A stretch of DNA of 37,688 nucleotides, from the NCBI GenBank assembly GCA_003130845.1, contig QEXW01000142.1:1-37688 (forward strand), given 5' to 3'. This document shows, in pieces, positions 17,535-29,828 of the stretch; the first letter of the stretch is position 1, and the number at the start of each line of letters is the position of its first letter. A model generated the notes under the pieces. It saw only the letters and a program-made list of their open reading frames with translations. It made no database searches and was not told the DNA's origin. Source of the DNA: Anaerolineae bacterium (lineage in GTDB: Bacteria; Chloroflexota; Anaerolineae; Anaerolineales; Villigracilaceae). The translations under genes and the position numbers were made by a program.

Positions 17535-18091
17535 AACACACGTTTTTGTTTTCCCTCTTGCTTTTGGGTTTGATTCTGCTTCCTGCCTGCGTTCCATCGG
17601 GGGAAGCCTACGAGCGTGTGACTCAGAGTGCGTTCCAGCCTGGAGATGCTATCCCTGCCCCTGTTGGAGAGGTCATTCTCACGGTGACGGGGAAAATTGG
17701 CGCAAAGAACAGTGGCGATGCACTCTTGCTGGATATGAACACACTCGAAAAATTCGGCCTGGTGCAGTACGTTTTGAACGACCCGTGGCTGAAGGAAAAA
17801 GTGACCTACAAAGGCGTATTGATGAGCGATTTTCTAAAAATCATCCAGGCCGACCCGGACGCGGAGAGCGTTCATTTCGTTGCACTGGACAATTACGAAG
17901 TGGACATCACCTTGCAGGAAATCCGCAAATGGCCGATTTTGCTGGCGACTCAGTCCAATGGAAAATACATGAGCGTCCAGGAAAACGGCCCCACCCGTAT
18001 CATTTTCCCCTTCGATCAGTTCCCAGAGATTGACCAGGTGACTTACCGAGATCTGATGATTTGGAACATTGCCTCGATGGAGGTGCGATGA
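17531..18091 (+). CDS. Lipoprotein with molybdopterin-oxidoreductase-like fold, no cofactor cysteine
   Basis: 186 residues. A signal peptide ends in the lipobox LLPAC (Cys20), so it should be anchored outside the cytoplasmic membrane. The mature part resembles the Oxidored_molyb (sulfite-oxidase/YedY) beta-alpha fold in compact form: VILTVTGKIG, VTYKGVLMSDFLKII, VHFVALDNYEVDITLQEI, ILLATQSNGKYMSVQENGPTRIIFPFDQFP. The cysteine that holds molybdenum in true enzymes is absent; the lipobox Cys is the only one. Such stripped proteins occur next to signalling genes in other bacteria, where a sensory role is suspected. It overlaps both neighbours by four bases; the next gene encodes a membrane sensor with an outside helical domain, its likely partner (inference). 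Confidence 0.75.
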   Translation: MKHTFLFSLLLLGLILLPACVPSGEAYERVTQSAFQPGDAIPAPVGEVILTVTGKIGAKNSGDALLLDMNTLEKFGLVQYVLNDPWLKEKVTYKGVLMSDFLKIIQADPDAESVHFVALDNYEVDITLQEIRKWPILLATQSNGKYMSVQENGPTRIIFPFDQFPEIDQVTYRDLMIWNIASMEVR

Positions 18092-19845
18092 ACACTCCTT
18101 CTCCAGCCCGCTGGCGGCCCAACCGATATCAGATTGTTACCATCAGCCTGGCTCTAGCGATTGCTCTGGCGTTTTCTGTGTTTGCTTTCCAGGATTTCCG
18201 TCAAGGCCAGTTGGCCTTTCGGGTCTTCAACGATGAAATCGAAGTGTTGACCACGCTGGCAAACATCCAGCGCCATCAAGCGCTCATGTTTGCGCAAACG
18301 TTAGCCTGGCTGGATGACCCTGCGGCAGGCAAGACTGAAATCGAAAAACAGCGCACGTTTCTGGCTTCCCAACTGCGGGTGTTACGCCCTCTGGTGGCAA
18401 ACGAGCCGGAAATCGAACAAAGAATCAATAATTTGCAAGCCGCTTTGCAGGAATACGATAGGTTGGTGGAATCGCTGGGCGAATCTCCTTCGCCTCAGGC
18501 GCGCGCGACAGCCCGACCACAGTTGATAGAATTACTCCGCCGTGTAGACGAAGCCCTGGTCAAACGCGCTTACGATGCCCAGGAACGTTCGTTCGTCCTG
18601 GATTTTGGGAACTTACTGCGTAACCAGGAACGAGCCCGCGCGTTACTGTTTGGGGTCAGTATTGCGTTCATTCTTCTGGTGCTGTTTGCTAGCGGCTTGT
18701 ATCTGCGCAGCGAGCGAAATACGTTCAATTTGCGTCAGCGTCAGATCCAAGAATTGCAGGCGGCAGTCAACGATCGCACCCGCGCCTTGGAGCTTGCCGC
18801 GGGAGTCAGCCAGCGGATTGCCGCCATCCGCGAACAATCTCAAATAGTGGTGGAAGTCGTCGAACAACTCAAACAAACCTTCAATTACTACCACGCGCAC
18901 ATTTATCTATTCGATGAGAACCGGGAAAATCTGCTCATGGTTGGTGGAACCGGTGAAGTCGGGAAAACCCTGCTGGAGCGCGGCCACAAAATCCCGCGCG
19001 GACGAGGCTTAGTCGGGCGCGCCGCCGAAACTAGTCAACCCGTTCTGGTCCCTGATACCGTAGCTGACCCAGCCTGGCTGCCTAACCCGCTCCTGCCAGA
19101 AACCCGCGCCGAAGTGGCCGTTCCGATCGTTGTGGGTAACCGCGTTCTCGGTGTGCTGGATGTGCAAAACAACCAAGTAGGCAGCCTGAGTGAACTGGAT
19201 GTGTTGCTCATTTCCACAGTGGCCGACCAGGTGGGCATCGCGCTGGAAAATATCCGTTCCAACCAAGTTGTTGAACGGCTGCTGCAAGAATATCAACAAC
19301 TCATCGAAACTTCCCCCGCGGCAATTGGCATTTTGGATGCACAAACCGGTGTCTTTGTGCAAGCCAACCCGCAAATGCTTGAGATGTTTGAACTTACCCC
19401 TGCAGACGTAGGACAGGTCGGACCAATTATGCTCAGCCCCGAACGTCAACCAGATGGTCGCCTGAGCCAAGAAGCCGCCATAGAGCACATTACACTCGCC
19501 CTACAGCAAGGTAAAAACACCTTTGAATGGGTGCACCACACACGCAGCGGGCGCGAGTTCCGCGCAGAAATCCACCTCACGCCTGCACCCAACAGGGAAG
19601 GACGTCCAATGCTAAACGCCATTATCACCGACATTACAGCACGCTATGAAGCCGAACAACAAGCCCGCCGGCGTGCCGAACGTGAAACGGCCTTGAACCG
19701 TCTGACCCAAGCTATTCAAGGCGCGCTCTCAGTAGAAGAAGCGCTACAAATTACTGCACGCGAGTTAGGGCAGGTGCTGGGGCGAAAACCTGTTCTCGCC
19801 GCGCTTCAATCGACTTTGCTCTCGTACGATAAGGAAGACCAATGA
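18088..19845 (+). CDS. Transmitter-less membrane sensor: helical periplasmic domain, GAF, PAS, truncated GAF tail
   Basis: 585 residues. Membrane span ~15-36, an extracytoplasmic helical domain ~37-180, span ~183-205, a coiled coil, then a GAF domain ~230-395 (FNYYHAHIYLFDE ... RGRGLVGRAAETSQPVLVPD ... AVPIVVGNRVLGVLDVQ) and a PAS domain ~400-520. The protein stops soon after ETALNRLTQAIQGALSVEEALQITARELGQVLG, which reads as the first ~40 residues of another GAF domain. There is no HisKA, ATPase, GGDEF or cyclase domain. The same kind of ending recurs in the next two genes. The ATG at 18088 overlaps the previous stop (ATGA). It would need to pass its signal to a separate kinase, most plausibly that at 24431. 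Confidence 0.87.
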   Translation: MNTPSPARWRPNRYQIVTISLALAIALAFSVFAFQDFRQGQLAFRVFNDEIEVLTTLANIQRHQALMFAQTLAWLDDPAAGKTEIEKQRTFLASQLRVLRPLVANEPEIEQRINNLQAALQEYDRLVESLGESPSPQARATARPQLIELLRRVDEALVKRAYDAQERSFVLDFGNLLRNQERARALLFGVSIAFILLVLFASGLYLRSERNTFNLRQRQIQELQAAVNDRTRALELAAGVSQRIAAIREQSQIVVEVVEQLKQTFNYYHAHIYLFDENRENLLMVGGTGEVGKTLLERGHKIPRGRGLVGRAAETSQPVLVPDTVADPAWLPNPLLPETRAEVAVPIVVGNRVLGVLDVQNNQVGSLSELDVLLISTVADQVGIALENIRSNQVVERLLQEYQQLIETSPAAIGILDAQTGVFVQANPQMLEMFELTPADVGQVGPIMLSPERQPDGRLSQEAAIEHITLALQQGKNTFEWVHHTRSGREFRAEIHLTPAPNREGRPMLNAIITDITARYEAEQQARRRAERETALNRLTQAIQGALSVEEALQITARELGQVLGRKPVLAALQSTLLSYDKEDQ

Positions 19846-21926
19846 TGAAAAACAGACCGTCTCTTCCCTTCCTGTCAAATATCGCTTCTCTGCGAAGTAA
19901 ACTCTTATTTAGTTTCCTGGTCATTGCAGGCTTTGCCATTCTCGTCTCCGGCTACTTTTTCTACAACCGCACCCAGCAAACCCAAAACTTCTTGCAGAGC
20001 GAGTTGCAAAGAAACGTGCGCCAACAATCGAGCCAGCAACTCAAAAGCACGATTAACACCGAAGCACAAGTCTTTGACCAGTTTTTTACTAATTCAACCT
20101 CTATCCTCACCCGACTTTCCAGTTACCAAACTGCTATATCCTCTCAGCAAGCAGTACTCGGAGATGGAGAATACTGGAATGCCCAAGAAAAATTAATTAC
20201 ATTTCCAGATGGTCAGGTAGGCAATGCCGCCACCGATACGGCTTCTATCTTCATCCCAAACACCATTGCTGTCACCGATGCCATGCTCGCTGAAATGAAC
20301 CTAAACATTTACCTGGATTTTGCGGTACCGTCTATTTTGAAAAATACACCCGATATTGCTTCCATCTACTTCATCAGCGAGCAAGGTTACACGATTTACT
20401 ACCCCAACATTGAACTGGCCAAAATTGCACCACCCAACTTTGACCCACGCACGCAACCGTATTACCGCTCAGCTCAACCAGACCAAAACCCGGAAAAGAA
20501 ACCCGTCTGGGGCGAACCGTACCAAGATACCGCCGGTGCCGGCCTGATTGTGACCGGTTCCATGCCCGTTTATGATGAGAGCGGCAAGTTTAGGGGAGTA
20601 CTTGGTATAGATGTCCAGCTGGAAAAAATCACCCAAGCCGTCGAAAAAATCCGCGCAGGAAAAACCGGTTTTGCTTTTCTGATTGATCGCTACGCGCATC
20701 CGATAGCCATGCCACAAATAGGATACGATCTGTTTGACCTGGTGCGCGAAGCCATTCCGCCTGGTGAACCCCTTCGACAAACTATGTTTGGGCAAGTCTC
20801 CGGTGATTTTTCCAATCTTTTGCTCGAAATGACGATTGGCAAAACCGGTGTCAGCACAATTTCTATCAAAGGGACACCTTATTACATGGCTTACACCTCG
20901 CTACCCACAACCGGTTACAGCCTAGCAATAATCGTGCCAACAGTGGAACTGGACGAGCCATTCCTGGCCGCACAAAACCGACTGGTTACTAAAACGCAGA
21001 CCACGCTACAATTCTCCATGGTGGTTGCACTGGGCATTTTCTTCGTAGCCGCCGTCATCAGCCTAATTCTTGGGCAAAGCATTGCCGGCCCACTGGTCCG
21101 GTTGACCGAGACAGCACGTCAAATTCAGACTGGTAACTTCCAGGTGCGGGCCGAGGTTGAAACCAATGACGAAATTGGCACGCTCGCCAGCGTATTCAAC
21201 AACATGACCGAACAAATACAACGTTCGTTTGTTGAACTAGAACATCGCGTAGCGGAACGTACCAAAGCCTTACAAATTTCACTAGAAGTCAGCCGTCAAC
21301 TTTCGGTAGTGACTAGTCCGCGTCAATTAGCAACCAATGTGGTAGAACAACTCCAATCTGCCTTTGGATACTACCATGCCCACATCTACTTCTTTGACGA
21401 AAAAGAGGAAAATCTGGTCATGGCGGGTGGCACGGGCGAGGCCGGTGCGGTCATGCTCGCCGCCGGGCACAGCATCCCGCGCGGACGCGGCCTGGTAGGG
21501 CGTGCCGCAGAGACCAAAGCCCCCGTCCTGGTTTCCGATGTAACACAAGCCATCGGCTGGCTGCCTAACCCCTTGTTACCCCAAACCCAATCCGAAGCCG
21601 CAGTGCCTATTATGAGCGGCGAGAAAGTGTTGGGCGTGCTAGATGTGCAACAGAATCGCGTGAATGGCCTGACCGAAGATGATGTTATCCTTTTGCAATC
21701 TATCGCCAGCCAAGTAGCGATTTCTCTACAAAACGCCCGTGCTTACGAACAATCGGCCACACAGGCCGAAATGGAAGCGGCTGTGAACTACATCAGTCAA
21801 CGCATCCAGCGCGCCGGCACTGTAGAAGAGACGTTACAGACGGCCATTCGGGAGTTGAGTCAAGTGCTGGGTGCCAAGCGGGCAGGCATCAAAATCGGCG
21901 CTCCGCAAACAGAACGACAAAACTAA
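19842..21926 (+). CDS. Transmitter-less membrane sensor: Cache-like domain, HAMP, GAF, truncated GAF tail
   Basis: 694 residues. Membrane span ~12-38, a large extracytoplasmic dCache-like ligand-binding domain ~40-375 (YYRSAQPDQNPEKKPVWGEPYQD, PVYDESGKFRGVLGIDVQLE, GKTGFAFLIDRYAHPIAMP), span ~388-415, HAMP ~415-470 (NDEIGTLASVFNNMTEQI), a coiled coil and a GAF domain ~490-645 closely similar to the one in the previous protein. The chain ends with the same stub (AAVNYISQRIQRAGTVEETLQTAIRELSQVLG). No catalytic output domain exists. Cache domains in chemoreceptors and kinases bind amino acids, organic acids and similar nutrients. It overlaps the upstream gene by four bases. Confidence 0.9.
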   Translation: MMKNRPSLPFLSNIASLRSKLLFSFLVIAGFAILVSGYFFYNRTQQTQNFLQSELQRNVRQQSSQQLKSTINTEAQVFDQFFTNSTSILTRLSSYQTAISSQQAVLGDGEYWNAQEKLITFPDGQVGNAATDTASIFIPNTIAVTDAMLAEMNLNIYLDFAVPSILKNTPDIASIYFISEQGYTIYYPNIELAKIAPPNFDPRTQPYYRSAQPDQNPEKKPVWGEPYQDTAGAGLIVTGSMPVYDESGKFRGVLGIDVQLEKITQAVEKIRAGKTGFAFLIDRYAHPIAMPQIGYDLFDLVREAIPPGEPLRQTMFGQVSGDFSNLLLEMTIGKTGVSTISIKGTPYYMAYTSLPTTGYSLAIIVPTVELDEPFLAAQNRLVTKTQTTLQFSMVVALGIFFVAAVISLILGQSIAGPLVRLTETARQIQTGNFQVRAEVETNDEIGTLASVFNNMTEQIQRSFVELEHRVAERTKALQISLEVSRQLSVVTSPRQLATNVVEQLQSAFGYYHAHIYFFDEKEENLVMAGGTGEAGAVMLAAGHSIPRGRGLVGRAAETKAPVLVSDVTQAIGWLPNPLLPQTQSEAAVPIMSGEKVLGVLDVQQNRVNGLTEDDVILLQSIASQVAISLQNARAYEQSATQAEMEAAVNYISQRIQRAGTVEETLQTAIRELSQVLGAKRAGIKIGAPQTERQN

Positions 21927-21948
21927 TTTCTGCCGCAGGAACGAACGT

Positions 21949-24420
21949 ATGAAAACTTCTTTCTCGCCTCGACGTATGTTTGCAGCACTGATAAGCGCAC
22001 ATCCCTCGCTTACTTCGCCAATTGAGCGCCGCAAAGCAGAGTTAATCGCCGCCTTATCGCTCGGCTTGTCGGTCATTTCTGCCTTTGGGGGCATAGGCAC
22101 CGCCTTGCGCACCGGGTTCGATATTCGCGCGATGGTCACGCTCTTGATGGCAGCTATCGCGCTGGTTTCCTATGGGTTGAGCCGCTCCCCTCGCTATACC
22201 TATGGGCAAATCCTATTGATTGCAACCTTGGCGCTTTCGGTCTTCATCGTTACCCCGCTCTCCATTTACCAATCGCTTGTTGCCCTCCTCAGTGTCGCAA
22301 TTACCTTGCTTATCACCAACTTGCTCGACTTGCGACAGATGGCTGTCTTTACGGCAATTATCCTGGTTGGTTTTATTGTATTGCGCCCCATCCTCTTACC
22401 TGGAATTGCCGGACAAGAAGCCTTCCTCATGCAAGTAGGTATGGTGGGAATTGGTATTTTCCTCCTGTTTTTTGCCTGGCACCGCCAAAGCCTAGAACAA
22501 CTTCGCCTGAACGAAATTCTACAAGCGCAAAACGCACTCGAAGAACGTAACCGCGCCTTGCAGATAGCACAACAGGAATTAAACAAACGCTTTGCCGAAA
22601 TTCAGCTCGCCGGCGAAGTTGGACGCGCCGTCTCACAGGTGCGCGCGCTCGATGAACTGCTCAAAGATGCCGTCGAACGCATCCGCGCCCGTTTCGACCT
22701 GTACTACGTGCAGGTGTACCTGGTAAACCCCGCCCAAACACACCTGGTGCTAGAAGCCGGTACAGGAGAAGTCGGCACAACCTTGCGGGCGCGCAAACAC
22801 CAACTGGCGCTTAATACCGGCTCGATTAATGGACGCGCCGCCGTCGAAAAAAAGCCGGTGGTGATTGCCAATACAACCCAAAGCGCCGTCTTCAAACCAA
22901 ACCCCCTCTTGCCCAAGACCCGTGCCGAAATGGCCATACCGCTTATAGTTGCAGAACGAGTAGTAGGCGTACTCGATATGCAAAGTGAACAGCCGGGCGG
23001 CCTAACAGAGGAGATGTTGCCCGCCTTTGAAGCGCTCGCCGGCCAACTCGCAGTTGCCATTCAAAACGCCAGGCTCCTCACCGAGGCCGAACAAGCCCGC
23101 GCCGAAGTGGAAGCCTATGCCCGCCGCCTGGAGCGCACGGGCTGGCAAGAATATTTGGATAGCATCCATCGCCCAGAACAGATTGGTTACCTGTGCGAAC
23201 AAGACCAAATCCTACCGCTCGAAGCCGAGACGGCTCTCCCACAAGAAAACACGGTGATGACGCCCATTCAAGTTGGGGGTGAAGCACTGGGTACACTCGC
23301 GGTAGAACTTCAGGCAGAGGAGCAAACCCCACAGGCCAGAGAACTCGTCCGCGCAGTTGCCCGCCAAGTGGCTGAACATCTCGAAAACCTACGCCTGCTC
23401 GAAATGGCAGAGCGTTATCGCCAAGAGGCCGAACAAGCCGCCCGCCGTCTCACCCTCAGTGGCTGGCAGGAATACTTACGCTCCAGAACAGACCAACCGC
23501 TCGGCTATTTCTACGACCTAACACAGGTCAAGCCGATCGAACAGGTGAATACACTGACCGCTAACTCCGCTCTGACCATCCCTGTTCAGGTGCGTGATGA
23601 AACCATCGGCAAATTAAGCGTCCTGGATGTAGACCCCAACGACCAGGAACTATATGATTTGGTGCACAGCGTAGCCACACGCTTGAGCGAACACATCGAA
23701 ACCCTGCGCCTGTTGGAAGAAACCCAGCGCGGTCAGCTCGAACTCGACCGGCGCGCCCGCCAGCTGGCAGCCGTTTCCGAAATTACGACCATCTCTTCCC
23801 GCGAAACAGATGTCAATCGAATGCTGGAAATCGTGGTACATTTGACCCAGCGCAAATTTGGCTTGTATCATGCCCACATTTTCACCTACAACCCTGCCAA
23901 TCGGCAGCTCTTGATTGTGTCATGTGGTTGGAAAGAAGGGGATGAACATGAAGGAACGCATGGTACAACGACAATTGCCATAGACCAAGAACAATCCCTG
24001 GTCGCCCGCGCCGCCCGCACGCGCCAGCCGGTGCTGGTTAACGATGTGCGCTCCGACCCGGGCTGGCTGCCCAACCCACTCCTACCAGAGACTCGCGCCG
24101 AACTGGCCGTTCCGCTGCTGATTGGTGACGAAGTGCTGGGCGTGCTGGATGTGCAATCGGAGCGTATCAACGCCTTCAGCGAGGAAGATGTCAACATCCA
24201 GGTCACGCTTGCTGCACAGGTGGCCACCGCCCTGCAAAATGCCCGCAACTACGAGCGCGCCCGCCGCCAAGCCGAACGCGAAGCCTTGCTCAACGCCATC
24301 AGCCAGAAGATTCAAAGCGCCACTTCGGTCGAAGCCGTTTTACAAATTGCCGCCCGCGAACTCGGCCATGCCCTGCGCGCCCCACGCGCCATTGCACAAC
24401 TGAGTCTAAAAGATTCGTGA
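21949..24420 (+). CDS. Transmitter-less membrane sensor with two full GAF domains and two mini-GAF modules
   Basis: 823 residues. Around six membrane spans fill ~20-185 with little outside loop. A coiled coil leads to GAF 1 (~205-375), two ~100-residue modules (~387-487 and ~497-590) beginning ARRLxxxGWQEYL and containing GYxxxxxQ...P, then GAF 2 (~605-770, RAARTRQPVLVNDVRSDPGWLPNPLLP) and the stub ALLNAISQKIQSATSVEAVLQIAARELGHAL. No kinase or other output domain is present. The start was placed at the ATG at 21949; the longer reading from 21871 overlaps the preceding gene by 56 bases and adds non-hydrophobic residues. The two modules also occur in the kinase encoded next, ten bases downstream. 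Confidence 0.87.
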   Translation: MKTSFSPRRMFAALISAHPSLTSPIERRKAELIAALSLGLSVISAFGGIGTALRTGFDIRAMVTLLMAAIALVSYGLSRSPRYTYGQILLIATLALSVFIVTPLSIYQSLVALLSVAITLLITNLLDLRQMAVFTAIILVGFIVLRPILLPGIAGQEAFLMQVGMVGIGIFLLFFAWHRQSLEQLRLNEILQAQNALEERNRALQIAQQELNKRFAEIQLAGEVGRAVSQVRALDELLKDAVERIRARFDLYYVQVYLVNPAQTHLVLEAGTGEVGTTLRARKHQLALNTGSINGRAAVEKKPVVIANTTQSAVFKPNPLLPKTRAEMAIPLIVAERVVGVLDMQSEQPGGLTEEMLPAFEALAGQLAVAIQNARLLTEAEQARAEVEAYARRLERTGWQEYLDSIHRPEQIGYLCEQDQILPLEAETALPQENTVMTPIQVGGEALGTLAVELQAEEQTPQARELVRAVARQVAEHLENLRLLEMAERYRQEAEQAARRLTLSGWQEYLRSRTDQPLGYFYDLTQVKPIEQVNTLTANSALTIPVQVRDETIGKLSVLDVDPNDQELYDLVHSVATRLSEHIETLRLLEETQRGQLELDRRARQLAAVSEITTISSRETDVNRMLEIVVHLTQRKFGLYHAHIFTYNPANRQLLIVSCGWKEGDEHEGTHGTTTIAIDQEQSLVARAARTRQPVLVNDVRSDPGWLPNPLLPETRAELAVPLLIGDEVLGVLDVQSERINAFSEEDVNIQVTLAAQVATALQNARNYERARRQAEREALLNAISQKIQSATSVEAVLQIAARELGHALRAPRAIAQLSLKDS

Positions 24421-24430
24421 GCAAACCACC

Positions 24431-26290
24431 ATGAGCGAAAACCGGCTGAAAAAGCGCCTGCAAAGCCTGTTCGAGGACATCGAAAACCTGGCCTCGCATC
24501 CCAACCCGGATGTAACTCTGATGCGTCGGGAATTAGATTCATTGCGCGCACGGGTTGCGGAAATTGAAACCCAGGTGGACCAATGGCAGGCTTCACTACA
24601 CTACCAACAAGTTGCCCGGCGGTTGGGGTCCTCTCTCTCTGCCTCGCTCTACGAAAAAGAACAAGTTGGGTTCGCCTGGATTAATGGCAAACTGGAACCC
24701 CTACGCTTGGCGCCGCTCTCTAAACTGGATGTGCAACGCGTCCTTTACATGCCCCTCACGGCTGAAAACAAATCCATTGGCGCCATCGTCGTTGAGCCAC
24801 CTGCAGAAAAAGATACCTGGCACTCCGATGAAAGCACACTGGTCGAATCGCTGGCTCGGCAGGTCTCGCTACAAATTCAGAATCTGCGCTTGCTCCAGGC
24901 AGCCGAACGCGCCCGCGCCGAAGCACAGGCCGCGACCCGCCGTTTCGCCCATGAAAGTTGGGCTTCCTTTCTCGATGCCATTCACCAAAACGAGCGAATT
25001 GGCTATGTGTACGACCAGGCCAGCGTTGAACCCTATACCGACCCGGCGCCCTCCGAAACCGGCATACAAGCCACCGTTTCTGTGCTAGAACAGCAAATTG
25101 GCCGCATCGTCCTCGAACAAGACCCCGCCAATCCCCTCAGTGAAGAAGACCAAGCCCTGGTCTCAGCCGTTGCCCGCCAATTAGGACAGCAAGTAGAAAA
25201 CTTGCGCTTGCTGGCCGATGCCGCCCGCGCCCGTGCTGAAGCCGAAGAAGCCACACGCCGCCTGACGCGCGAAAGTTGGAAGGGTTACACAGAGAAAAAA
25301 GAAAAACACTCCCTCGGTTTTCTCTATGACTCGAACCGCGTCACGCCACTCGAAGAAGTGCCCCAAAATATCACATTGGCAAAGCCCCTGGTTGTGCGCG
25401 GCGAGCCGATTGGCGAATTGGCCATTGCTGGACTAGATGAAGTTTCTCCCGAAATGGCCGCTCTGATGGATGCCATCGCGGCGCAAACCAGCCTGCATCT
25501 GGAGGCCCTGCGTCTGACCGAAGAACTGCAACGCCGCGCCGAAGAATTACAAGAACTGGACCGGCTCAAATCGTCTTTTCTCGCAAACATGAGCCATGAA
25601 TTGCGCACGCCATTGAACTCCATTTTAGGTTTTACGGACGTCATGCTAGAAGGGATTGACGGCCCACTGACCGAGTACATGGAAAACGACTTGCGCTTGA
25701 TTCAAAAGAACGGTCAGCACCTGCTCTCTCTCATCAACGACGTATTAGATATGGCCAAAATCGAATCGGGCCGTATGAACCTGCACCCCGAACGGTTCAA
25801 CTTGTACGACCTGATTCAAAATGTGATGAATATCACCTCCGCGCTGGCCAACGCCAAAAACCTAACCTTATTCATCGAACCAGATACCGACCCGGCGCTA
25901 GAAATTACCGCCGATGAAACCCGCATTAAACAAGTCCTAATCAACGTGGTCAACAACGCCATCAAATTCACCGAAAGCGGTTACATCTCTATCCATGCTG
26001 CTTGCACCGGCGATGATAAAATACTCATCACCGTCAACGACACCGGCATAGGCATCCCCGCTGACCATTTAGAGAAAATCTTCCAAGAATTTTCACAGGT
26101 AGATACATCCACCACCCGCAAAGTAGGCGGCACGGGGCTTGGGCTACCCATCAGCCGCCGCCTGGTAGAATTGCATGGCGGGCGCATGTGGGCCGAAAGT
26201 GCCGGTATCCCCGGCGAAGGGTCCACCTTCTACATTGAACTGCCCATCCAAGCCAAAATCACCGAAATCGTTGAAAAGAGAGTCAGATAG
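24431..26290 (+). CDS. Soluble histidine kinase with three mini-GAF modules
   Basis: 619 residues with no membrane span. An N-terminal coiled coil (~1-60) leads to three consecutive ~100-residue modules (~60-160, ~167-262, ~272-365), the last two starting TRRxxxESWxxxxxxxxxxxxxGYxYD or a close variant. A short coiled coil joins them to HisKA with His389 in MSHELRTPLNSILGFTDVM, and to an HATPase domain with NVVNNAIKF, DTGIGI and GGTGLGLPISRRLVELHGG. It is the only complete kinase in the 16173-28735 row and is flanked by three sensors lacking transmitters and by receivers lacking kinases, so it probably collects the sensors' signals and phosphorylates the neighbouring receivers (inference from order and domain content). 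Confidence 0.92.
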   Translation: MSENRLKKRLQSLFEDIENLASHPNPDVTLMRRELDSLRARVAEIETQVDQWQASLHYQQVARRLGSSLSASLYEKEQVGFAWINGKLEPLRLAPLSKLDVQRVLYMPLTAENKSIGAIVVEPPAEKDTWHSDESTLVESLARQVSLQIQNLRLLQAAERARAEAQAATRRFAHESWASFLDAIHQNERIGYVYDQASVEPYTDPAPSETGIQATVSVLEQQIGRIVLEQDPANPLSEEDQALVSAVARQLGQQVENLRLLADAARARAEAEEATRRLTRESWKGYTEKKEKHSLGFLYDSNRVTPLEEVPQNITLAKPLVVRGEPIGELAIAGLDEVSPEMAALMDAIAAQTSLHLEALRLTEELQRRAEELQELDRLKSSFLANMSHELRTPLNSILGFTDVMLEGIDGPLTEYMENDLRLIQKNGQHLLSLINDVLDMAKIESGRMNLHPERFNLYDLIQNVMNITSALANAKNLTLFIEPDTDPALEITADETRIKQVLINVVNNAIKFTESGYISIHAACTGDDKILITVNDTGIGIPADHLEKIFQEFSQVDTSTTRKVGGTGLGLPISRRLVELHGGRMWAESAGIPGEGSTFYIELPIQAKITEIVEKRVR

Positions 26291-26292
26291 TC

Positions 26293-27960
26293 ATGTCCAA
26301 ACCAGTTCACTTGGAATGCACCGCTTGTGGTCATCATCAGCCCTATCAACCCTTTGCCCCCGTGCGCTGCGAACAATGCGGCTCGCAATGGCTCGAAACG
26401 CGCTACGACTACGCAACGTTCAAGCGGGAAATTTTACGCGGACTGCCCGGACGTCCTTGGAACATGTGGCGTTACCAAGATGTCTTACCGGTAGAAAACC
26501 CGACCAAACTGGATTTATACCCCGCCGGTGGCACCCCGCTATGGCTCTCACAACGCTTTGCACCTGCCCTAGGACATGCAAACGTTTATATCAAAGATGA
26601 ACGCTACGGGCCAACCAGCTCCTTCAAAGACCGCCAAGCCGCTGGCGCCGTAGCTGCCATGCTCGAAAATGGCATCAAAGAAGCGGTGATTGCCTCCACC
26701 GGCAACGCCGCCGTAGCCTATGCCGCTGCCTGCGCGCGCGCCGGCATCAAACTCTGGGTGTTCATGACCAGCCTCGTGCCGCAAGAAAAACTGCGCGAAG
26801 CCGCCCTATTTGGGGCTGAAGTCATTCGCGTCAGCGGCAACTACGACCAGACCAAACAAATTGCCGCGCAATTTGCCCAACGCCGCCGTCTGCTGCTCGA
26901 CCGAGGGGCGAACTCGATCCCAGCACGCGAATCGATGAAAACGATTGCCTATGAAATTGTCGAGCAACTCGGCTGGCGCGCCCCAGATTGGTATTTGCAA
27001 GCCGTCAGTGGCGGCATGGGGCCGATTGGCGTGTACCAGGGCTTTGAGGAACTCTTGCGCATGGGGTTGATTGACCGCATCCCCAAACTCGCCATCATCC
27101 AGGCCGAAGGCTGTGCGCCAATGGTGCGCGCCTTCAAGGCCAGAAAATCCATTGCCGACCCGGTCATCCCCGATACCTCCATCATCATCCTTTCCACAGG
27201 CGACCCGGGCGCCTCGTACACCCATCTCTGGGAACTCAGCCAGAAATATGGTGGGGTCATGGAATCCGTCAGTGATGCCCAGGCCTTCGATGCCATGCGT
27301 TCCCTCGCCAAAAGCGAAGGCATGGCCGTCGAACCCGCCACCGCTGTCGCTTTTGCCGGGCTAGAAAAACTGCTGCGCGAAAAGGTCATCCAACCGGATG
27401 AACTGGTTGTCGTCAACTGCACCGGCCATACCTTCCCGGTAGAAAAACATGTCCTGGGCGACCAATGGGCTGTAGATGTCCACCTGAGCGAAGGCCAAGC
27501 ACCCGCCCCGCGCGAGGGCCTGCAAGCCGCGCTCGAAAACCTGGATGAAAAAGCCACCACCGTTCTCCTGATTGACGACAACGATGACGATTCGCTGCTC
27601 ATCCGCCGCATTCTCGAAGCCCGCAAATCCTACCGCGTCTTCCGCGCCCGCGATGGCTGGGAAGGCCTCTCGATGGCGCGCCAGAAATTACCCGACCTAA
27701 TCATCAGCGATTTGACCATGCCCGGCATAGATGGATTTGGCCTAGTGGAAGAGTTAAAACTCGACCCGCGCACAGCGCACATCCCGATTGTCGTCGTCAG
27801 CGCCAAAGACATCACCAACGAAGAACGGCAACGCCTAAGCGGCCACATCCAAGCGCTCTACCAGAAAGGCTCACTCACCCCACGCAAATTCGTCGAACAG
27901 GTTGTGCAGACCATCGAAGAAGAAAAAAGCGGCGAAAAAGGAGCCAAAAAGAATGGGTAG
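26293..27960 (+). CDS. Threonine-synthase-like PLP enzyme fused to a C-terminal receiver domain
   Basis: 555 residues. Residues 1-405 form a fold-type II PLP enzyme of the ThrC family: N-terminal zinc ribbon (Cys9, Cys12, Cys26, Cys29), Schiff-base Lys112 in SSFKDRQA, the STGNAAVAYAAACARAG substrate loop, the phosphate-cup SGGMGPIGVYQGF and STGDPGASYTHLWEL. Threonine synthase converts O-phosphohomoserine to threonine; related members act on other amino acids, so the exact reaction is open. Residues ~420-540 are a receiver: LLIDDNDDDSLLIRRIL, phosphoacceptor Asp473 (LIISDLTMPGIDG), Ser in VVVSAKD and Lys in LYQKGS. The frame is continuous with no stop or frameshift at the junction. It starts three bases after the kinase stop and overlaps the next receiver gene by eight bases. 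Confidence 0.92.
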   Translation: MSKPVHLECTACGHHQPYQPFAPVRCEQCGSQWLETRYDYATFKREILRGLPGRPWNMWRYQDVLPVENPTKLDLYPAGGTPLWLSQRFAPALGHANVYIKDERYGPTSSFKDRQAAGAVAAMLENGIKEAVIASTGNAAVAYAAACARAGIKLWVFMTSLVPQEKLREAALFGAEVIRVSGNYDQTKQIAAQFAQRRRLLLDRGANSIPARESMKTIAYEIVEQLGWRAPDWYLQAVSGGMGPIGVYQGFEELLRMGLIDRIPKLAIIQAEGCAPMVRAFKARKSIADPVIPDTSIIILSTGDPGASYTHLWELSQKYGGVMESVSDAQAFDAMRSLAKSEGMAVEPATAVAFAGLEKLLREKVIQPDELVVVNCTGHTFPVEKHVLGDQWAVDVHLSEGQAPAPREGLQAALENLDEKATTVLLIDDNDDDSLLIRRILEARKSYRVFRARDGWEGLSMARQKLPDLIISDLTMPGIDGFGLVEELKLDPRTAHIPIVVVSAKDITNEERQRLSGHIQALYQKGSLTPRKFVEQVVQTIEEEKSGEKGAKKNG

Positions 27961-28333
27961 AAACATCTTGTGCATTGAAGATAATCCAGATAACATGATG
28001 CTCTTCAGGCGCGTTTTAGAGGCTTCTGGGTTCCAAATACTACAAGCCTTCAATGGACTCGATGGTTTGAAAATGGCCCAAAGCGAGCCGATAGACTTGA
28101 TTTTGCTCGACATCAACTTACCCGACATTGACGGCTACGAAGTCACCCGCCGCTTTCGTCAGAGCACACATCCTAGCGCCGCCCATTTGCCCATCTTGAT
28201 TATCACCGCCAACGTACAAAAACGAGATGTGGACCAAGCCATGGCCGCCGGCGCCACCGAATTTATCACCAAACCCATCGATATTTTTGCATTGTGTGAT
28301 AAAGTAGAAGAGTATTTATCTGCGTGTAAATAG
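27953..28333 (+). CDS. Single-domain response regulator, first of a tandem pair
   Basis: 126 residues, receiver only: Glu9/Asp10 in CIEDNPDNMM, phosphoacceptor Asp53 (LILLDINLPDIDGYEV), Thr in IITAN and Lys107 (FITKPID). The ATG at 27953 overlaps the end of the enzyme-receiver gene by eight bases and has AAGGAG upstream; a longer reading from 27902 adds only a lysine-rich stretch from the overlapping frame. It is closely similar to the next protein, with identical EDNPDNM and LILLDINLPDIDGYEV blocks, so the two arose by duplication. The DivK-like style suggests a shuttle or sink receiver. Confidence 0.92.
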   Translation: MGRNILCIEDNPDNMMLFRRVLEASGFQILQAFNGLDGLKMAQSEPIDLILLDINLPDIDGYEVTRRFRQSTHPSAAHLPILIITANVQKRDVDQAMAAGATEFITKPIDIFALCDKVEEYLSACK

Positions 28334-28354
28334 GCACGCGAGGAGACTCCTAAA

Positions 28355-28735
28355 ATGGGAAACGTCGTCCTATACATTGAGGACAATCCCGACAACATGT
28401 TGCTCGTCAAACGCGCCCTCGAATCGCGCGGCTACCGCCTTTTACAAGCCACCACCGGCTTACAAGGGGTGGAGATGGCCGAACGCGAAAATATAGATTT
28501 AATCTTGCTCGACATCAACTTACCCGATATTGACGGTTACGAAGTGGCACACCGCCTGCGGCACAGCAAAAAAACCGCCCTAGCATACACCCCCATCATT
28601 GCCATCACCGCCAACGCCCTCAAAGGTGACGCCGAAAAAGCCCTGGCCGCCGGCTGCGACGTTTACATGTCTAAACCCATCAACATCCGTGAACTCTGGG
28701 CACAAGTGGAAGGCTTTCTCCCCTCGCCAGGATAA
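28355..28735 (+). CDS. Single-domain response regulator, second of a tandem pair
   Basis: 126 residues, receiver only: Glu9/Asp10 in YIEDNPDNML, Asp53 in LILLDINLPDIDGYEV, Thr in AITAN and Lys107 (YMSKPIN). GAGGAG precedes the ATG. It is the last gene of the row and is followed by a strong terminator. Compared with its twin, the alpha4-beta5 surface differs (AEKALAAGCDVYMSKPINIRELW versus VDQAMAAGATEFITKPIDIFALC), the face that usually contacts partners, which hints at different targets. Confidence 0.92.
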   Translation: MGNVVLYIEDNPDNMLLVKRALESRGYRLLQATTGLQGVEMAERENIDLILLDINLPDIDGYEVAHRLRHSKKTALAYTPIIAITANALKGDAEKALAAGCDVYMSKPINIRELWAQVEGFLPSPG

Positions 28736-28761
28736 TCTCTCCTACCCACATACAAACCCTG

Positions 28762-28811
28762 ACGCCAGACCGCCCATTCAGTTGAAACCAGGTCTGGCGT
28801 TTTATTTTATT
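28762..28811 (+). terminator. Rho-independent terminator closing the sensor/receiver row
   Basis: A 10-bp perfect stem, ACGCCAGACC (28762-28771) with 28791-28800, a 19-base loop, and the run TTTTATTTTATT directly after it. Confidence 0.85.
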
Positions 28812-28884
28812 GCTTGTACCCCGCTGATAAGCACAGAGTACTTCATCTCACTGATTGCGCCTAACTTTTTAGCCAAACTCTGGC

Positions 28885-28913
28885 TTGACGCCCTTCCCCG
28901 AAGCATGTAATAT
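28885..28913 (+). promoter_or_regulatory. Promoter of the carbohydrate gene group
   Basis: TTGACG (28885-28890), a spacer of exactly 17 bases and TAATAT (28908-28913), 34 bases before the ATG at 28947. An AGGAG ribosome-binding site lies between. Confidence 0.65.
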
Positions 28914-28946
28914 CACCCCGAATCTACCCCTCGCAGGAGCAATCAA

Positions 28947-29828
28947 ATGAACACTGGCGATTTTAACGGCTGGTCAACCCGCATCATCGAAAACCATTTC
29001 CTACGGCTAGAAGTTCTGACCACTTCCCCCCGCATTGTGCGGCTGTTTCCCTTTGGCAAAGCCAACCTATTTGCCGATTTGGGCAACGAATATAACGAAA
29101 CCCCCTACGGACTGTTCTACTTCCGGGGCGGACATCGTTTGTGGCACGCGCCCGAAGCCATGCCGCGCACCTATATTCCCGATAACGAAGGCGCGGTCAT
29201 CAGCGCAATCCCCAACGGCGTGCGCATCGAACAACCGGCTGAACCCTGGACGCACATCGCAAAAAGCATCGAAATTCGCTTAAACGAAAACCAACCGCAA
29301 GTTATCCTGCAGCATGAAATGCGCAACGATGGCCCTTGGACGGTGGAATTTGCCCCCTGGGCGCTGACCATGTTCCGCCTGGGCGGTGTGGGCATCTTCC
29401 CCCAACCGGTAGGGAATGCCGACCCGGCCGGTCTGCTCGCCAACCGCCAACTCGCCATCTGGCCTTATACCAAACTGGATGACCCGCGCCTGACCCTGCG
29501 CGACGACTTCATCCTGCTACGCGCAAGTGGCGGCCTGCCCCCCGTCAAAGTAGGTTACTTCAACCCACACGGCTGGCAAGGCTATTATTTAGAAGGGACG
29601 CTGTTCATCAAACGCTTCGACCCGCTGCCCGGCGCCAATTTCCCCGATGGCGGCTGCAACACCGAAACCTACACCAACCATCAATTCATCGAACTAGAAA
29701 GTCTCGGCCCTCTCACCCGCGTTGCCCCCGGCGAAACCATCACCCACACCGAAACCTGGGAACTATATCACGGCTTAGAACACCCCCTCATCCCCCCTGC
29801 CCTGGCAGATGTGATACAACAAAATTGA
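28947..29828 (+). CDS. Galactose-mutarotase-like beta-sandwich protein (DUF4380-type)
   Basis: 293 residues, soluble, no signal peptide. The strand-rich pattern fits the aldose-1-epimerase-like superfamily: early NHFLRLEVLTTSPRIVRLFPFGKANLFADL, FRGGHRLWHAPEAMPRTYIPDN (position of the family's substrate-binding region), ILQHEMRNDGPWTVEFAPWALTMF and a final ETITHTETWELY. It resembles proteins annotated DUF4380, whose activity is not established; it could be a mutarotase or a carbohydrate-binding protein. It begins the group that contains an alpha-L-fucosidase and a ROK sugar kinase, which supports a sugar role. Recognition is from motif memory, so family assignment is moderate. Confidence 0.65.
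   Translation: MNTGDFNGWSTRIIENHFLRLEVLTTSPRIVRLFPFGKANLFADLGNEYNETPYGLFYFRGGHRLWHAPEAMPRTYIPDNEGAVISAIPNGVRIEQPAEPWTHIAKSIEIRLNENQPQVILQHEMRNDGPWTVEFAPWALTMFRLGGVGIFPQPVGNADPAGLLANRQLAIWPYTKLDDPRLTLRDDFILLRASGGLPPVKVGYFNPHGWQGYYLEGTLFIKRFDPLPGANFPDGGCNTETYTNHQFIELESLGPLTRVAPGETITHTETWELYHGLEHPLIPPALADVIQQN

Follow-up and report, generated by a model that had tools for sequence, protein, structure and literature searches.

The window, by which we mean the whole 37,688-nucleotide stretch of an Anaerolineae genome that was analyzed, carries on its forward strand a gene (26293..27960) that runs from ATG to stop in one frame and encodes a protein of 555 amino acids, in which a threonine-synthase-like PLP domain is fused to a receiver domain. 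The first-pass annotation had claimed that one uninterrupted frame joins a ThrC-type PLP domain to a complete receiver, and this was borne out: both Pfam domains score above their gathering cut-offs, PALP at residues 78–378 (26524..27426; E 7.9e-69, 232.6 bits versus 35) and Response_reg PF00072 at residues 424–512 (E 1.2e-15, 58 bits versus 30.2). Along the protein we find a zinc-ribbon-like segment with the cysteines C9, C12, C26 and C29 (26317..26379), which may bind zinc; the fold-type II PLP domain with the PLP lysine K112 within SSFKD, the STGN loop at 135–138 and SGG at 239–241; a linker helix at residues 407–421 (27511..27555; EGLxAALxxLDE), defined by the secondary structure of the model and by conservation; and finally the complete receiver at residues 422–545 (27556..27927) with D428/D429, D473, S503 and K525, delimited by Pfam, conservation and model. 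When residues 1–59 were searched alone, weak zinc-finger and zinc-ribbon matches appeared (E 0.015 or worse). The AlphaFold model of the monomer (m0821b6cf9e4c) is of moderate quality (pLDDT 77.1, pTM 0.73), with residues 379–399 and 401–408 below a pLDDT of 50 and the stretch 379–408 largely unreliable. The modelled receiver consists of five alternating strands and helices, and the PLP domain fits the structures of threonine synthase and of CapA2. The best structural matches by VIA-align were 2c2b (plant threonine synthase, Z 37.4), 9k3c (CapA2, named a cysteate synthase, Z 35.1) and 2d1f (Z 34.0).

All genes around the fusion discussed here lie on the same strand and were assigned with Pfam. 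Directly upstream is a soluble sensor histidine kinase (24431..26290) with partial GAF domains, HisKA and HATPase_c and an N-terminal KRLQSLFEDI box within 24431–24500, which we presume to be the cognate kinase. The adjacency of the fusion to the kinase stop codon had been noted before with a spacing of 3 bases; the adjacency stands, the gap to the fusion ATG is 2 bases. Two lone receivers follow, as had also been described: receiver A (27953..28333), whose ATG still lies within the fusion gene (8 nt of overlap), and receiver B (28355..28735). Upstream of the kinase, three kinase-less proteins are encoded, a GAF-PAS protein (18061..19845), a dCache-HAMP-GAF sensor (19842..21926) and a sensor with GAF domains (21871..24420). 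By eye, all three appear to end with the initial helix of another GAF domain, and the GAF match of the kinase covers the last part of the profile alone (GAF_3 positions 76–129 of 129); it is conceivable from these sequence ends that a split GAF links the sensors to the kinase. In the frames of the window after the lone receivers (beyond 29828 read by eye) we saw no unfused PALP protein and no GNAT acetyltransferase. Promoters and terminators predicted in 24200–29100 showed no clear excess over shuffled sequences (4 versus 2.9 and 3 versus 6.4, respectively).

The fusion is not confined to this assembly, a concern that the first-pass annotation had raised. Among 400 Chloroflexota genomes surveyed with matches at E up to 1e-60, 115 genomes gave a match, and full-length fusions from 42 of the 400 occupy the first 57 places, with about 46–47% identity or more to the window protein (down to E 2.1e-158). 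Unfused proteins begin right below them (E 7.8e-71, 39% identity or less). We re-read the frames for all 57 places, 56 in stretches of the respective genomes plus the window itself, and every one covers both domains. The genome from which the window comes contains a second full-length fusion paralogue (contig C87, 53% identical), and among the matches listed, this genome and 24 of 24 others of the same family carry the fusion. The 20 genomes listed without a match all belong to other families (265 further ones without a match are unlisted). In a second scan over named genomes, the best 80 of 572 relatives are all named as Chloroflexota, and 80/80 cover both domains; they include four named Herpetosiphon species, among them H. 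aurantiacus DSM 785. More distant fusions may exist beyond these best 80 of 572. That the fusion is an artefact of assembly or gene calling has next to no probability left: the fused paralogue within the same genome speaks against it, and the same uninterrupted fusion at 57 places in 42/400 genomes and at 80/80 of the best named-genome loci, including the complete genome of H. aurantiacus DSM 785, led us to reject this reading.

The survey places and the best 80 of 572 named-genome relatives together form 136 loci, of which 114 are left once redundancy is removed at 97% identity. With the window we obtain 115 non-redundant proteins, namely 70 of type I, to which the window belongs, 35 of type II and 10 of type III. 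All ten type III proteins (L064, L167 and L170–L177) have two tandem receivers after the PLP domain; L064, counted here, has an over-extended N terminus. Invariant in 115/115 are Cys9, Cys12, Cys26 and Cys29, Lys112, Ser-Thr-Gly-Asn 135–138, Ser-Gly-Gly 239–241, Gly-His-Thr 378–380 and, in the receiver, Asp429, Asp473 and Lys525. At position 503, 82 proteins have Ser and 33 have Thr; position 428 is occupied by Asp in 98 proteins and by Glu in the other 17. The earlier assignment of Asp473, Ser and Lys as a phospho-competent site is thereby confirmed, and the suspicion that relatives might have lost the phospho-acceptor proved unfounded, because the Asp is kept in every protein. With 71 invariant positions among the 392 of the catalytic part (1–392) compared with 8 of 124 in the receiver, and with a median identity of type II proteins to the window of 54.7% in the catalytic part and 41.3% in the receiver, the enzyme part appears to be under the stronger constraint. 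This better conservation between types argues against a decayed enzyme. In a tree of receivers, a branch with a support of 95/96 sets one group apart from the lone receivers and from the first receiver of the hybrid kinases. This group contains the fused receivers, the second type III receiver and, from the type II hybrid kinases, the last receiver. Weak support is common among the inner branches of this tree, and its row L062_HKr2 is mis-cut and duplicates L062_HKr1. This topology is compatible with a single origin of the receiver fusion.

We then compared the neighbourhoods across all loci with enough flank, the window left out, using mechanical frames labelled by BLAST against exemplar proteins; the values are raw rates. 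A histidine kinase lies directly upstream of the fusion in 65/65 type I, 33/35 type II and 5/9 type III loci, giving 103/109 in total (more than 2 kb of flank). By the criterion used, the loci lacking an adjacent kinase are L068 and L093 (type II) and L170, L171, L174 and L176 (type III). The question of whether the architecture always lies beside a kinase is thus answered with a near-constant linkage. A lone receiver follows within 300 nt in 64/65 type I, 0/32 type II and 6/10 type III loci, and an unfused PALP protein lies at most 1.2 kb downstream in 29/56, 0/31 and 1/9, respectively. A GNAT acetyltransferase is found in 9/56 type I loci, never together with the unfused PALP. Type II loci have their own partners: an EamA transporter within 300 nt in 27/32 (type I 0/65, type III 0/10) and a ParA-family ATPase upstream in 28/34 (type I 3/53, type III 0/9), which in 26 of the 28 type II loci immediately precedes the kinase. 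One of the unfused PALP neighbours was scored and is a clear PRK08197-type protein with 577.5 bits to NF006050 (cut-off 303), while two EamA proteins matched 2A78, the carboxylate/amino acid/amine transporter model, weakly with 44 and 50 bits versus 230.

Several further observations concern these neighbours. PRK08197-type unfused PLP enzymes can be seen after the fusion and the lone receiver, for example at L042:11365-12552 in a type I locus. The genome of the window encodes a further four-Cys PALP protein on contig C120 (L010:4975-6276; 266 bits to NF006050, cut-off 303), near frames that by eye resemble PAPS/APS reductase and class V aminotransferase, surroundings that are perhaps related to sulfur amino acids. 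With a loose pattern searched in the first 60 residues, an N-terminal box like KRLxxLFxDI is present in 50/65 type I, 27/33 type II and 0/5 type III kinases. The N terminus of ParB/Spo0J activates ParA, and the kinase box resembles this ParA-activating segment. As judged from gene order and motif, the type II kinase is possibly a sensor kinase positioned by ParA.

Is the fused PLP domain a threonine synthase? The first-pass annotation took it for a ThrC-type enzyme, and its cysteines and its Lys112 were found as claimed; the role in threonine, and hence amino-acid, synthesis is less well supported. With 172.5 bits the window protein scores just over the cut-off of the thrC model TIGR00260 (167.1), and it stays below that of the PRK08197-type model NF006050 (252.1 versus 303). 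Other fusions fall below the thrC cut-off, with 166.9 bits for Herpetosiphon and 147.9 bits for one type III protein. The fusions share with ThrC and the PRK08197-type proteins the fold-type II PLP domain, the lysine and the STGN loop, and with the unfused PRK08197-type proteins also the N-terminal four-Cys segment, yet the identity to the listed bacterial threonine synthases is just 27–32%. The five solved threonine synthases 2zsj, 1uim, 2d1f, 6cgq and 1e5x have NSxNxxRxEGQKT and a GNxGN loop in common and, unlike the fusions, have no C-terminal receiver. These canonical residues presumably hold the phosphate of O-phosphohomoserine (Asn154, Ser155, Arg160 and Asn188 in T. thermophilus). In the fusions the motifs are replaced by DxG...E(S/A)MKT and SGGxGP: across the 115 proteins the first stretch reads D203-x-G205 ... 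E213-(S/A/G)-(M/F)-K-(T/V), the canonical Arg gives way to Ala, Ser, Gly, Cys or Pro in 115/115, and the place of the loop is taken by S-G-G-x-G-P, again in 115/115. EGxK is kept in 5/5 unfused controls and absent from 114/115 fusions. Residue 204, which is Asn or Ser in 5/5 controls, is Arg, Met, Lys, Leu, Ala or Gln in the fusions. The controls themselves are not uniform: three have the canonical Arg, and GNxGN is found in one, the strong ThrC of the window's own genome. L097, although well over the TIGR00260 cut-off with 277.6 bits, has neither the Arg nor GNxGN, and three other controls lack GNxGN as well. The fusions hence depart from the canonical motifs further than any control, but parts of the motifs vary in unfused, named threonine synthases too, so that the motif argument is not absolute. 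In a tree of catalytic domains (34 of the 115 fusions and 6 unfused rows, of which the long branches may be misplaced), all fusions fall to one side of a branch that measures 2.69 changes per column and has a support of 100/100, and each type likewise falls to one side of a branch (I 100/99, II 82/82, III 97/99).

The pathway genes were inspected in the fusion genomes as well. A second, unfused thrC, which had been suggested as something to look for, is present in the genome of the window (contig C33, 308.4 bits), and such a strong ThrC with at least 262 bits to TIGR00260 accompanies the fusion in 36/42 genomes. The six others are G064, G072, G387, G128, G192 and G011. All of these but G128 contain weaker unfused TIGR00260 matches over 167.1, reaching up to 229.6 bits, making another threonine synthase possible in five of the six. 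The homoserine kinase model TIGR00191 was matched in 13 of the 21 fusion genomes checked (of 42), in 11 of these 13 right beside the strong ThrC, and was not matched in 8; among the latter are all six genomes without a strong ThrC, for a model that also misses 3/14 control genomes. No TIGR00191 match was obtained in Herpetosiphon (G034, G110) either, where a strong ThrC is present. The alternative homoserine kinase models TIGR00938 and TIGR02535 gave nothing over cut-off in 11 genomes and matched 1/14 and 7/14 controls, with sub-cut-off matches of TIGR00938 in G011, G034 and G110 and of TIGR02535 in G011 and G192. Aspartate kinase TIGR00657 was over cut-off in 6 of 11 fusion genomes checked and in 14/14 controls; it was not found at that level in G064, G072, G128, G192 and G248. 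Four genomes (G064, G072, G128 and G192) thus keep the fusion with strong ThrC, homoserine kinase and aspartate kinase all undetected. In G248, thrB is found along with a strong ThrC and no aspartate kinase was detected, which indicates that such absences may reflect incomplete assemblies or divergent enzymes and are no proof.

The reading as a threonine synthase regulated by phosphorylation can still point to the TIGR00260 score just over cut-off, to the fold match with plant threonine synthase 2c2b and to the unfused proteins that pass TIGR00260 and stray in part from the canonical motifs too. We nevertheless hold it to be improbable, and we rejected it as the best reading, because the motifs of the solved enzymes are replaced, because most fusion genomes have a separate strong ThrC, and because the fusion persists where homoserine kinase and aspartate kinase are undetected. 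On this evidence, "threonine synthase" is probably the wrong name for the fused PLP domain.

The known systems closest to the fusion include the response regulators with enzymatic outputs, such as CheB and those of the PleD/GGDEF, HD-GYP and PP2C type. These outputs act mostly on signalling molecules or proteins, namely cyclic di-GMP, receptors and phosphoproteins. Like them, the fusion has the complete phospho-acceptor residues, an enzyme joined to the receiver and a histidine kinase encoded next to it; it differs in that the output is a PLP metabolic enzyme and is placed N-terminal of the receiver. The known kind would be the response regulator with enzymatic output, and the new element would be the class of output. 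The likeness to cysteate synthase and CapA2 (9k3c), which aligns from residue 1, is a structural one: the identity is 24%, the 9k3c chain of 435 residues has no receiver, and with 131.2 bits versus a cut-off of 324.9 the window protein falls well short of the cysteate synthase model TIGR03844. Cytoplasmic signalling clusters positioned by ParA are known from PpfA/TlpT of Rhodobacter. Type II loci are similar in that a ParA-family ATPase is paired with a kinase having a short basic-hydrophobic N-terminal box, but no chemoreceptor was seen, and the likeness is one of gene order and motif alone. In the open-licence literature, outside of which most subscription journals lie, we found no description of a ThrC-receiver protein or of a PLP metabolic enzyme as response-regulator output, in line with the first-pass annotation, which had proposed a candidate for an undescribed system.

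The reading we favour, with a confidence somewhat above even, is a response regulator with a PLP-enzyme output that acts on an amino-acid-like substrate, probably not O-phosphohomoserine, and is under the control of the kinase encoded next to it. Input to this histidine kinase would come from the kinase-less sensors upstream, and the kinase would phosphorylate Asp473; the receiver would then, via the conserved helix, alter the activity of the threonine-synthase-like PLP domain on its putative amino-acid-like substrate, and the neighbouring lone receiver would share the kinase. Such a phosphorylation-gated PLP enzyme is favoured by the combination of kinase linkage with a receiver and a PLP site that are both intact. 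The partner genes, which are a second PLP enzyme, the acetyltransferase and the EamA transporter, fit the chemistry of small molecules better than a supply of threonine. We infer that phosphorylation controls the enzyme, be it by activation or by inhibition.

In the main rival reading, the PLP domain would serve as a ligand sensor, in which binding of an amino acid or PLP tunes how readily the receiver accepts phosphate and thereby reports a metabolite to the kinase and the lone receivers. Sensors of the MocR/GabR type reuse PLP enzymes, the lone receiver that follows the fusion in nearly all type I loci puts another acceptor at hand, and the presumed substrate site is bordered by altered motifs. 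Against this, not one of the 115 proteins deviates in the PLP lysine, the STGN loop, SGG or GHT, and several of the neighbouring genes encode enzymes and transporters, which suits catalysis. We consider the sensor rather unlikely on balance. Alternatively, the receiver could be a docking domain alone that ties the enzyme to the kinase and sensor cluster for localisation, with phosphorylation being no catalytic switch. The ParA-family ATPase encoded upstream in most type II loci makes such a positioning plausible; a pure dock, however, would be expected to lose some of the phospho-acceptor Asp, the acidic pocket, the Ser/Thr and the Lys, all of which are kept in 115/115 proteins, and we give the docking domain a low probability.

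Returning to the phosphorylation-gated enzyme, one may speculate that it is part of a stand-alone two-component system for the synthesis and export of a small molecule, leading from the sensors over the kinase complex and the PLP enzyme to an amino-acid-like compound and its dedicated EamA-type transporter; in type II, the kinase complex may owe its position in the cell to a ParA ATPase of its own. We regard this extension as unlikely. If it were true, the response to a signal would be a metabolite, made within seconds and without transcription, perhaps for communication between the cells of filamentous Chloroflexota. In practical terms, the models used here would name the fusion family threonine synthase or leave it unnamed, which is probably misleading, and with Herpetosiphon aurantiacus DSM 785 a cultured host with a complete genome makes the system testable. 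The fusion and its adjacency to the kinase suggest that the signal switches the enzyme directly and not through gene expression. If a metabolic PLP enzyme is indeed the constant fusion partner of the receiver, two-component signalling would be able to control the flux of a small molecule directly.
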